A DNA stretch of 64,000 nucleotides from an uncultured Oleiphilus sp. Its GTDB lineage: Bacteria; Pseudomonadota; Gammaproteobacteria; Pseudomonadales; Oleiphilaceae. The stretch is from the NCBI GenBank assembly GCA_913020245.1, contig CAJWAD010000005.1, forward strand, positions 1-64,000, in the 5' to 3' direction. This document shows, one piece after another, positions 41,615 to 46,084 of the stretch (positions are counted from its first letter, which is position 1; every line of letters begins with the position of its first letter). Under the pieces are notes generated by a model that saw nothing but the letters and a program-made list of their open reading frames with translations, was not told where the DNA came from and searched no databases. The translations under genes were made by a program, and so were the position numbers.

Positions 41615-42673
41615 TTAGGCATCTAAGGTAGCCAAATAGCGCTCAAATTTCTTTTCAGGTGTGAGTTTATGAGGCGTTATGACCGGCTCGGGCATCTGAG
41701 CCAAAAATTGGGGCAAGGTCATTTCAAATTCATTTTTAAAGAAGCGACGAAAGCCGGAACTCGTTTGAAAGCCCAATCGCTCCGCTGTTGTGTCAATATC
41801 CGCGCCTTCAAGCATCAGGTAGACGCTGGCAAGTTCACGGCGCGTTTTACTGGCTAAGCTTGAGAATGATTCCCCATTTTTACTTAAACGTTTCTGTAAG
41901 CCACGCACCGAGATGTTGAGTCGGCTAGCAAGGGTTTGCCCACTGAAACAAACAGGGTGGTATTGCATTAAGTATGTTACCACGCGGTATTCGAAGTCCC
42001 AGGACCGCTCAATGGCCCATAAAGTGTCGTTACACTTATTCATGTATAGCTGATGCAGCGTTGGATTCGCTGCTTTGAATGGGAGTGACAGGATTGTTTT
42101 ATCGAACTCAATTACTGATATTGGCGAATTAAAGGTACCAGGATTATTAAACCTTTCTAAATACGTTTCCGCATATTTTGGCGCCTCATAATTAAGATAG
42201 AGCGCTTTAGGGGCAATGTCTTGACCAATAGATTCTTGAAGTAAATTAATAATGTAAGAAAAGGCGGCTTCGGCACAAAACCGGCGTTGTGGCTCGGACA
42301 CTTGATCTTTAAACGGGTAAGTTAACGCGAGTGCGATCGTCTTGTCTTTCTCTACCGCGACGAGAAAGTAGCTTGCGCCCAGCATAGAGTGGAACCGATT
42401 GGCAGCCTTTAAAAAGGCACTGAAGTTGTCTGCGCTCATTAATGCACGAGAAAGATCGCAGAGCGCGTGAGGCCGTAGGTGTTCTCCATAGCGAATGCCG
42501 ATGTCTGAGTCCGCATCATCCTTGTAAACCTGGTTTACTAAATTGCTGTATAACTCGCGCGCAACTGCAGCATCGCCAGATTGTTCGGCAATACGTTTAT
42601 GGCGCATACTAATTTGTCTGTGCTTTTCGGGCACGAGTTCTACAAGAAGTCGAAAATAGATATCGTCTAACAT
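41615..42673 (-). CDS. AraC-family regulator with arabinose-binding/OruR-like N-terminal domain
   Basis: 352 aa; C-terminal HTH (LASRLNISVRGLQKRLSKNGESF...AERLGFQTSSGFRRFFKNEFEMTLPQF). Confidence 0.9.
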   Translation of the reverse strand: MLDDIYFRLLVELVPEKHRQISMRHKRIAEQSGDAAVARELYSNLVNQVYKDDADSDIGIRYGEHLRPHALCDLSRALMSADNFSAFLKAANRFHSMLGASYFLVAVEKDKTIALALTYPFKDQVSEPQRRFCAEAAFSYIINLLQESIGQDIAPKALYLNYEAPKYAETYLERFNNPGTFNSPISVIEFDKTILSLPFKAANPTLHQLYMNKCNDTLWAIERSWDFEYRVVTYLMQYHPVCFSGQTLASRLNISVRGLQKRLSKNGESFSSLASKTRRELASVYLMLEGADIDTTAERLGFQTSSGFRRFFKNEFEMTLPQFLAQMPEPVITPHKLTPEKKFERYLATLDA

Positions 42674-43026: not shown

Positions 43027-43127
43027 ATGTATAAAAAAGTTCGCCTGCTTGATCGAGCATTAACTTTGCTTAAGTTATCTTCCTAGCCTCCACTCAATTT
43101 AAAAATAAAAAGATGGAGAACTTCAAA

Positions 43128-43859
43128 ATGTTAGAAGTAAAAAAAGTAGTAAGCAGTATTGCTAAGATCGCCACGATGTCGATTGCAGTGACGTCGATGA
43201 TTGCTTGTTCCGGCGGTGGTTATGAGCAATCCGTAAATGGGCGAAATGATGTAGTCACGGTGGGTGACTCAATTTTTGACTTAAATGGTGTGTTGCAGGA
43301 AACACTTGAAAGTTATGCCGGCACTCAGTTCCGCGATTACACGACCTCAGGGGCGGAGTTGCAAGGTGGCTTGTTTGCACCGTCGGTGTATGAGCAGTAC
43401 GAGACCGCCAACAATTTTAATGGCAATATCAACACGATCGTAATGGACGGTGCAGGGAACGATATATTAATCCCCGCTACGTTGTTCGACCCTTACGGTT
43501 GTCGTACGCGTTGGTACCGTCGTAACCCCTCGAATAGCTGTAACAACCTGATCAACCAGCAATATACAGCAGCGGTAAATCTGCTCAATATTATGGATGC
43601 TGACGGTGTTCAAGATGTTGTTTGGTTGGGCTACTATGAATTGCCACGTAGTAATGCAAACCTCACGAAAGCATTGAATCGCGGTGATGATTACCTCGGT
43701 TACGCTTGTGAAGTGGCTTCCGCGGCAAGCTGCTCGTTTGTTGACCCGCGCGGTACCGTTCCTGCTAATCAGGTTGAGAGCGATGACATTCACCCAACGC
43801 CTGCCGGTTCTGTGAACCTCGCAAACCAAGTATGGCCTGTTCTAGCGCCACTACTGTAA
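43128..43859 (+). CDS. SGNH/GDSL hydrolase-like lipoprotein, copy 1
   Basis: GDSIFDLNG (block I), GAGND (block III), DDIHPT (block V); N-terminal lipobox SMIAC; SD GGAGA before ATG 43128. Confidence 0.78.
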   Translation: MLEVKKVVSSIAKIATMSIAVTSMIACSGGGYEQSVNGRNDVVTVGDSIFDLNGVLQETLESYAGTQFRDYTTSGAELQGGLFAPSVYEQYETANNFNGNINTIVMDGAGNDILIPATLFDPYGCRTRWYRRNPSNSCNNLINQQYTAAVNLLNIMDADGVQDVVWLGYYELPRSNANLTKALNRGDDYLGYACEVASAASCSFVDPRGTVPANQVESDDIHPTPAGSVNLANQVWPVLAPLL

Positions 43860-43900
43860 TTAGGTTCTATACCTAAAAAAGGCCCGAACTTAGGGTCGGG

Positions 43901-43929
43901 AACCCTGCCTTTATGGTGGGGTTTTTTTA
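43901..43929 (+). terminator. Rho-independent terminator between the two SGNH genes
   Basis: AACCCTGCC-tttat-GGTGGGGTT + T7 (9-bp stem with two G-T wobbles). Confidence 0.75.
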
Positions 43930-43974
43930 TGCCAATTCTTAAATGTGAATTTTGTCACACTTCGCGATACTAAT

Positions 43975-44004
43975 GATTAGAGTTGATAGCGCTCAACTCT
44001 AATC
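43975..44004. repeat. 12-bp perfect inverted repeat upstream of second SGNH gene
   Basis: GATTAGAGTTGA-TAGCGC-TCAACTCTAATC; no T tract on either side. Confidence 0.9.
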
Positions 44005-44106
44005 GCGAACAAATTAATCGCCTTGGGGCGGTTTCGGAATTCGTTACCAAATTCAAATGTCCTAGTATGTCGCCCCCCAATTAAATAAAAATAACTTGGA
44101 GAAAAC

Positions 44107-44820
44107 ATGAAATCATTACTAAAAGTTTTGGGTGCGTCAGTAGTCGCTGCAAGTGTTGTCGGTTGTACAATTCCTGCAAATTATGAAGAGTCGGTTAACG
44201 GTCGCAATGATGTTGTGACGGTCGGTGATTCTATTTTTGATTTAAACGGTGTGCTACAAGAGACACTAGAAAGCTACGCGGGCACGCAGTTCCGTGACTA
44301 CACCACTTCAGGTGCAGAGCTTCAAGGGGGGTCATTAGCGCCTTCTGTTTACGAGCAGTATGCGGCAGCGAACAGCTTCAATGGCGATATCAACACAATT
44401 GTTATGGATGGTGCGGGTAATGACATTCTTATCCCTGCGTCATTGTTTGATCCTTACGGCTGCCGCACGCGTTGGTACCGTCGTAATCCATCAAACAGCT
44501 GTAATAACTTGATCAACCAGCAATATACTTCGGCAGTTAACTTGCTTAACACGATGGCTGTTGATGGTGTTGAAGAAGTGGTTTGGCTGGGTTATTACGA
44601 GCTTCCTCGTGGTAATGCAAACTTAACTAAAGCACTTAATCGTGGTAATGACTACCTTGGTTATGCTTGTGAGACAGCATCAACAGCGAGCTGTTCATTT
44701 GTTGATCCACGCGGTACCGTCCCCGCTAATCAGGTTGAGAGTGACGACATTCACCCAACGCCAGAAGGTTCTGTTAACCTAGCCAATCAAGTTTGGCCAG
44801 TACTTTCGCCACTCCTTTAG
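44107..44820 (+). CDS. SGNH/GDSL hydrolase-like lipoprotein, copy 2 (tandem paralog)
   Basis: Same GDSI / GAGND / DDIH blocks; lipobox SVVGC; about 90% amino-acid identity with copy 1 over the mature region. Confidence 0.78.
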   Translation: MKSLLKVLGASVVAASVVGCTIPANYEESVNGRNDVVTVGDSIFDLNGVLQETLESYAGTQFRDYTTSGAELQGGSLAPSVYEQYAAANSFNGDINTIVMDGAGNDILIPASLFDPYGCRTRWYRRNPSNSCNNLINQQYTSAVNLLNTMAVDGVEEVVWLGYYELPRGNANLTKALNRGNDYLGYACETASTASCSFVDPRGTVPANQVESDDIHPTPEGSVNLANQVWPVLSPLL

Positions 44821-44861
44821 GTGAGTAGTTCGGCTTAGTTTGTTAAGACAAGCCAGCGATG

Positions 44862-44900
44862 AAAAAGCGCACCACGTATTTTAAGTGGCGCGCTTTTTTT
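44862..44900 (+). terminator. Rho-independent terminator after second SGNH gene
   Basis: aaaaagcgcaCCAC-gtattttaa-GTGGcgcgcttttttt: stem with one mismatch, T tract. Confidence 0.75.
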
Positions 44901-45022
44901 ATTTTGGGTGTGTGATGTGAACTCAATTCCGGCTTTTTTATGCGGCCTCGAATACACTAAACGTCAAATAAAAATAAACGCTTTAGTTCGTCCTGGATAC
45001 GAACGCAAACTACAGGGCTCCT

Positions 45023-46084
45023 ATGTCTATTAAAACAAGTTTTATCTCGATTTTTATCGTCGCAATTTTTGGTAGTTTACTCTGGTATTTGAATATAAGT
45101 ACATCAGAAGATTTAGCGCAAAATAGTTTGCAAAGTAGCGTTTCGGTGTCGACGGATAGCGCCGACATACCCGTGCCACCTTACAGTATCGTTAACACAA
45201 GAAAGGAATCTAACGCAGAGAGCGTTGTAGAAAAATATGCCTTACTGATGCGCGAAACATTCGCCAGTAGTATCCAATTGCTGAAAGTCCAGGTAGGTTT
45301 AAAATCGTTTCGTGATGAGCTGGAAAGTGATTATCCGGGGCAAGGGGCATCGCTTTTCGAGCAGGTTGTCCGTCGTGCTTTTCCAGAACTCGCCGCTGAA
45401 ATTCTCACTTCTGTAGGGAAAATGCAAACCTATGATGAGTGGCTGGTTGCAAATTATCTGGATCTAAATGACAAAGACCCACTCTCTAAAGAGGGGGCTA
45501 TTTGGGCAAAACGCAACGAGATATTTACTGAGGAGGGAGCCAGAGAAATTTGGTCAGAGGAGCTTACACAGGCTCAGGAACGTGAAGAAACCATGCATAA
45601 GGTGCTGGCAACGTTGAATACGGCCGATGATATGCCAATGGAGGACCGTGTTTACATCATGCAATCGGCAATGCAAGAACAATATGGGTCGACTCCTCAG
45701 GGTCTTGCATTGGGCACAACAGGGTTGGCTACGCAGCTCGTTTTCGATTTAGAGTCGGTACAGAAAGAGCTCAGAGACATGTCGGAAGACGATAGACAGG
45801 AATCGATCAATGCCGTACGTCGTCAAATGGGGTATCCGGAGGATCGTATTGAGGCGCTTGAAAAAATGGATCGTGATAATGAAGCGCGCTGGCAGAGAGG
45901 GTATGGTTATATGGAGGAACGCACCGAAATTATCGCGCAGTACGAGGGGGATGCGTTAACGGAAAAATTGGATGAATTGCGCGTTAAACATTTTGATGAG
46001 CGCACAGCCTACAGTATTAAAGTAGAAGAAGAACAAATGAAATTTTTACGTTTTGACGAGCCCAGAATATTTGGACGCAACTAG
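45023..46084 (+). CDS. Membrane-anchored lipase-chaperone (Lif/foldase)-like protein
   Basis: 353 aa; N-terminal TM anchor; helical; INAVRRQMGYPEDRIEALEKMDRDNEARWQRGYGYMEERTEII...LDELRVKHFDERTAYSIKVEE resembles the Lif C-terminal region; canonical RxxFDY(F/C)LSA motif not seen. Confidence 0.55.
   Translation: MSIKTSFISIFIVAIFGSLLWYLNISTSEDLAQNSLQSSVSVSTDSADIPVPPYSIVNTRKESNAESVVEKYALLMRETFASSIQLLKVQVGLKSFRDELESDYPGQGASLFEQVVRRAFPELAAEILTSVGKMQTYDEWLVANYLDLNDKDPLSKEGAIWAKRNEIFTEEGAREIWSEELTQAQEREETMHKVLATLNTADDMPMEDRVYIMQSAMQEQYGSTPQGLALGTTGLATQLVFDLESVQKELRDMSEDDRQESINAVRRQMGYPEDRIEALEKMDRDNEARWQRGYGYMEERTEIIAQYEGDALTEKLDELRVKHFDERTAYSIKVEEEQMKFLRFDEPRIFGRN

Follow-up and report, generated by a model that had tools for sequence, protein, structure and literature searches.

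A candidate steric foldase of the Lif superfamily encoded beside SGNH-hydrolase lipoproteins

Which protein does a Lif-like gene serve when the enzyme encoded next to it is an SGNH hydrolase and not a lipase? This question is raised by a stretch of DNA of 64,000 nucleotides (the window, meaning here the whole stretch that was analyzed), in which the following features were placed.

41615 to 42673, minus strand: a regulator that we take, from our own reading of the sequence, to be of the AraC type; divergent from the first SGNH gene
43128 to 43859, plus strand: SGNH-hydrolase lipoprotein 1, with lipobox SMIAC, Ser in GDSI, Asn in GAGND, and Asp and His in DDIHP
43883 to 43907, no strand assigned: hairpins followed by T-rich tracts, terminator-like, between the two SGNH genes
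44107 to 44820, plus strand: SGNH-hydrolase lipoprotein 2, 83% identical to copy 1, with lipobox VVGC
45023 to 46084, plus strand: Lif-superfamily protein of 353 amino acids, downstream of both SGNH genes

A preliminary description of this locus proposed that the Lif-like protein may be a foldase for SGNH lipoproteins. Profile homology and gene co-occurrence support that proposal, and we infer, with a probability of roughly 0.7, that the protein acts as a steric foldase for its SGNH lipoprotein neighbor.

Both SGNH copies in the window carry GDSI, GAGND, and DDIHP together with a lipobox Cys. The first reading frame is open from position 43113 (43113-43859); the internal ATG at 43128 is the likelier start, since a GATGGAG-type ribosome site precedes it. 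In an alignment of 85 relatives, C20, G40-D41-S42, G104-N105-D106, D213, and H216 are invariant. The catalytic residues are therefore intact across the blocks that define the SGNH superfamily (the Ser of GDS, the oxyanion Gly/Asn, and Asp-x-x-His), with Ser, Asn, Asp, and His unchanged throughout (n = 85). The proteins have a signal peptide with a lipobox, whose Cys occurs in 85/85 sequences and is the predicted site of lipidation. Cys 119 and Cys 132 are also invariant in the 85 relatives, as are Cys 188 and Cys 196 in a smaller set of 21 sequences. The Pfam Lipase_GDSL_2 match of the two window copies is subthreshold (E = 0.0012 and 0.0015), a Pfam GDSL match at E ≤ 0.001 is reached by 12/21 relatives, and NCBIfam has no sensible model for either the SGNH or the Lif-like family. 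The AF2 model of the second copy (pLDDT 93) has the flavodoxin-like alpha/beta fold of the superfamily; a PDB fold search returned 54 matches at E ≤ 0.001, and the top matches listed are SGNH/GDSL esterases (best E = 2.7e-8). In catalytic blocks and fold the family thus resembles known SGNH/GDSL hydrolases (PF13472 and PF00657; TesA, EstL5, PlaA, and EstA), from which it differs by its lipobox Cys, its conserved Cys pairs, and a near-constant Lif-like neighbor; to our knowledge, no such neighbor has been reported for TesA or EstA. A search for a plasmid copy of the SGNH gene found none.

The AF2 model of the Lif-like protein (pLDDT 88, from 71 sequences) comprises an N-terminal membrane helix (residues 2-28), a disordered linker of low pLDDT (about 29-64), and an all-helical body laid out like MD1 (65-150), EHD (153-268), and MD2 (273-339). 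This predicted architecture resembles that of Lif/LipB/LipH (PF03280; Burkholderia glumae 2ES4), which shares the N-terminal membrane helix and the linker (about 36 residues here; 30 to 55 residues in known Lifs [PMC13381987]) and whose MD1-EHD-MD2 type the helical body appears to follow. A further likeness is the position of the gene beside that of an exported lipolytic enzyme, usually downstream. The sequence pattern noted earlier, RIEALEKMDRDNEARWQRGYGYMEERTEIIAQ...LDELRVKHF, is present, and RPRxYGRN is conserved at the C terminus.

Taken alone, the window's Lif-like sequence scores 11.6 bits against PF03280, below the cutoff of 25.7 (E = 0.27, not significant), and a match at E ≤ 0.001 is reached by 6/21 and 8/71 relatives in two sets. 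Homology to Lif is found at the profile level. Comparison of a profile of 21 Lif-like relatives with one of seven lipase-adjacent Lif-type proteins gave E = 1.6e-55 over 277 columns. These seven, all encoded beside alpha/beta hydrolases, belong mostly to an intermediate subgroup (L020-L025), and a stricter comparison was therefore made with 14 PF03280-type Lifs, most of them from other genomes, which gave E = 1.3e-9 with a probability of 96%. A fold search with the Lif-like model placed chains E and D of the B. glumae Lif 2ES4 at ranks 1 and 4 of 350,542 PDB chains; the Foldseek superposition is loose (E = 0.096; probability, 0.96; TM, about 0.25 to 0.3), and the order of the helices fits MD1-EHD-MD2. 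A PDB sequence search started directly from the Lif-like profile gave no matches; 2ES4 was reached through the lipase-adjacent Lif-type profile and through the fold search. Much of what the preliminary description had read at this locus is upheld by these results, namely, two tandem SGNH proteins with their catalytic blocks, an N-terminally anchored helical protein with a Lif-like pattern, and, with 2ES4 as the top if loosely superposed match, a relation to Lif. The PF03280 hit that it called for failed with the single sequence, but the family profile matched PF03280-type Lifs.

The MD1 motif RxxFDY(F/C)L(S/T)A has been described as conserved among all foldase families and as essential, its mutation inactivating known foldases (PMC7046727). 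This motif was found in 0/71 members of the Lif-like family and in 9/14 of the standard set. Because profile homology and the fold match are accompanied by absence of the motif, we assign the protein to the Lif superfamily but not to the standard Lifs. Standard Lifs differ further in their neighbor, a family I.1/I.2 alpha/beta lipase instead of an SGNH lipoprotein, and in that most members of the Lif-like family fall below PF03280. The Lif scaffold is known; the loss of the motif is new, as the client class (SGNH) would be.

Motif loss would also suit a protein that binds the SGNH enzyme without folding it, either as a periplasmic inhibitor or as an escort feeding the enzyme into the T2SS or into lipoprotein sorting. 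Such a role would be easily derived, since standard Lifs bind their clients with nanomolar affinity (PMC7046727); the expected T2SS marker is present in the window's genome, and the linkage data given below apply identically. However, the entire MD1-EHD-MD2-like body has been retained, not just a binding part, and the known Lifs are foldases. We hold the inhibitor or escort role to be unlikely. Counting against the foldase reading are the failure of the single sequence at PF03280, the loss of RxxFDY in 71/71, the E value of 0.096 for 2ES4, and one orphan Lif-like gene (L168). In addition, SGNH enzymes from other families need no Lif to fold.

As a less biased test of linkage, loci were gathered across all GTDB species with the SGNH family alone, the Lif-like gene not being used as a query; the SGNH alignment with which the scan began came from loci first found through the Lif-like gene. 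The 79 loci examined derive from the best 80/123 SGNH matches, and all locus counts here refer to these. A Lif-like gene adjoins the SGNH gene in 77/79. The two exceptional genomes do contain a Lif-like gene, in one case next to a second SGNH gene and in the other on a different contig. The SGNH gene comes first on the same strand in 72 of the 77 loci, the Lif-like gene comes first in 3, and the two lie on opposite strands in 2; since order and strand vary, the linkage outlasts rearrangement. The gap between the two genes has a median of 88 bp. In Myxococcota (L093/L172 and L098), the two ORFs overlap by about 150 bp, perhaps as an artifact of upstream start codons.

Among the best 80/123 matches, the pair was found in three phyla, Pseudomonadota (Gammaproteobacteria), Desulfobacterota, and Myxococcota, in marine and anaerobic bacteria; the Gammaproteobacteria that bear it are Oleiphilaceae, Bermanella, Thalassolituus, Saccharospirillum, Marinobacter, Hahella, Halomonadaceae, and Vibrio. 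When antisense shadow ORFs are left out (neighbor clusters in 20 and 12 loci, judged by coordinates to be shadows of the two genes), no other neighbor family occurs in more than 14/79 of these loci; the next commonest is a generic ABC ATPase (14/79). A homologue of the AraC-type regulator lies about 0.1 to 5 kb from the SGNH/Lif genes in 10/79 loci, all of them the window's nearest relatives, and this protein is a candidate local regulator outside the core pair.

Within 163 genomes of the window's family, the SGNH and Lif-like genes are both present in the same 38 and both missing from the other 125 (presence lines, >260 bits for SGNH and >290 bits for Lif-like). Three further genomes of the 163 hold a distant SGNH relative under the presence line (84 to 114 bits). 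The Fisher P value for co-occurrence (5e-38) assumes more independence than these related genomes have. Seventeen of the 38 pair-bearing genomes are scattered through one large genus, most species of which have neither gene, and the distribution of the family is patchy, given its presence in only 1/369 genomes of a sparse class-wide sample. Chance adjacency was rejected in view of the 77/79 loci (best 80/123 matches), the 38/38 genomes, and the lack of any other conserved neighbor. The orphan Lif-like gene lies in an Oleiphilus genome (L168:10517-11596, minus strand), with no SGNH gene within the 15 kb read and with an apolipoprotein N-acyltransferase-like gene (PF20154 and PF00795) as its neighbor.

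Linkage by itself is no proof of contact, and the two proteins could, without touching, act in one pathway, such as the turnover of envelope lipids or wax esters, their linkage reflecting co-regulation only. The spacing of the three window genes, with gaps of 200 to 250 bp and terminator-like sites (about twice as many in the region as in shuffled sequence), can be read in this way. Nevertheless, the Lif-like protein is kin to proteins known to fold the hydrolase encoded beside them, and no further pathway gene is linked; we therefore give a contact-free shared pathway little credence.

At the window locus, no alpha/beta lipase lies beside the Lif-like gene, as the preliminary description had stated, and its neighbor is SGNH. 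Alpha/beta lipases do occur in the genome, with a VolA-like lipase in the window at 171-2945 and a standard lipase (LipA), adjacent to its own Lif, on another contig (G000:C34). The Lif-like protein could accordingly be a spare chaperone for LipA or the VolA-like lipase, the SGNH genes being incidental, and both its superfamily membership and the pairing of one clade subgroup with an alpha/beta hydrolase would fit. However, the standard lipase already has its own Lif, co-occurrence is with SGNH (38/38) and not with the standard Lif, and the SGNH linkage spans three phyla, which makes this role highly improbable. Standard Lifs are present in 136/163 family genomes and do not track the SGNH/Lif-like pair, and PF03280 is absent from at least one nearly complete genome that carries the pair (G442). 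On two grounds, the Lif that LipA already has and the failure of standard Lifs to track the pair, a role as spare chaperone of that lipase was rejected. The preliminary description had looked to conserved SGNH-Lif co-occurrence, which the locus and genome surveys bear out, and had named a lipase partner elsewhere as grounds for refutation; a standard lipase was found, but its own standard Lif adjoins it. In three Marinobacter loci (L126, L127, and L128), a standard Lif gene immediately adjoins the SGNH and Lif-like pair in convergent orientation; in L127 and L128 this standard gene is followed by its lipase. Two foldase systems thus stand side by side.

In a quick tree of 53 sequences, with long branches and with the direction of change depending on the root, a fully supported branch divides the standard Lifs from every SGNH-associated protein, the Lif-like family forming a deep branch separate from the standard Lifs. 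Inside the SGNH-associated clade lies the subgroup L020-L025 with L171 (Pyxidicoccus), which includes Hahella, Pyxidicoccus, and others. Its members score 200 to 240 bits against the SGNH-type Lif-like profile, yet their gene adjoins an alpha/beta hydrolase (weak Palm_thioest/DUF676 similarity), not SGNH. Because the neighbor differs within the clade, the foldase-like protein has persisted while the hydrolase beside it was replaced by one with a different fold. This pairing, like the family-wide lack of the standard MD1 motif, goes beyond the preliminary description. Distances in the SGNH tree and in the Lif tree are correlated (r = 0.62, against at most 0.29 in 2000 shuffles), a correlation that shared descent alone could give. 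In both trees, however, the second pair of an Oleiphilus genome (L077) clusters with one from Hahellaceae, indicating that the two genes travel together.

If the Lif-like protein is a foldase, the three genes would make up a module of clients and their chaperone. Its SGNH proteins would be exported by Sec and then, as predicted, lipidated at the conserved Cys; the residues after the lipobox Cys (S/G and T/I) suggest sorting to the outer membrane. The N-terminal helix and long linker would keep the Lif-like protein tethered to the inner membrane, where the protein's predicted helical crescent (MD1-EHD-MD2) would wrap the newly exported SGNH enzyme in the periplasm and help it past the last folding barrier to an active, disulfide-bonded, release-competent form. 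The enzyme would afterwards be sorted to the outer membrane or exported. Standard Lifs act in this manner on family I.1/I.2 alpha/beta lipases; here, we infer the binding, the folding activity, the localization, and the substrate.

Two classes of steric foldase have been counted, for lipases and for proteases (June 2026, PMC13381987). We lean toward a third, with obligate SGNH-lipoprotein clients in at least three phyla, which would be under-annotated because its scores fall below PF03280. The fold of the client served by the Lif scaffold would then have switched one or more times (between SGNH and alpha/beta hydrolase, in either direction), and the scaffold would therefore be versatile, not lipase-specific. 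A precedent for a membrane-anchored dedicated chaperone with a non-lipase client is CpaB of Acinetobacter, which serves the adjacently encoded protease CpaA, a T2SS client (PMC4713064). As described there, CpaB differs from the Lif-like protein in its SRPBCC-type domain and its protease client, and a table of known and putative T2SS chaperones in the same paper lists no SGNH client (PMC4713064). Our search of the open-access literature found no link of Lif to SGNH/GDSL enzymes, although a subscription paper could exist. If the foldase reading is correct, one helical scaffold matures clients of unrelated folds, and natural client-swap pairs are available for learning how a foldase recognizes its client. 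It would also explain why recombinant screens might miss some GDSL/SGNH esterases from marine bacteria and hydrocarbon degraders, whose adjacent helper gene is unannotated. The module is small and is present in named strains of Marinobacter, Hahella, and Vibrio.

Separately, short proteins in two genomes from another family significantly match PF03280 (E of about 2e-6) and are encoded on the minus strand (L151:1516-2376, L153:2290-3150, and L152:1483-2304) beside PETase-like hydrolases (PF12740, E = 1e-104 and better, checked in L151 and L152). Such hydrolases may be yet another class of foldase client, which would be relevant to enzymes that degrade plastic.
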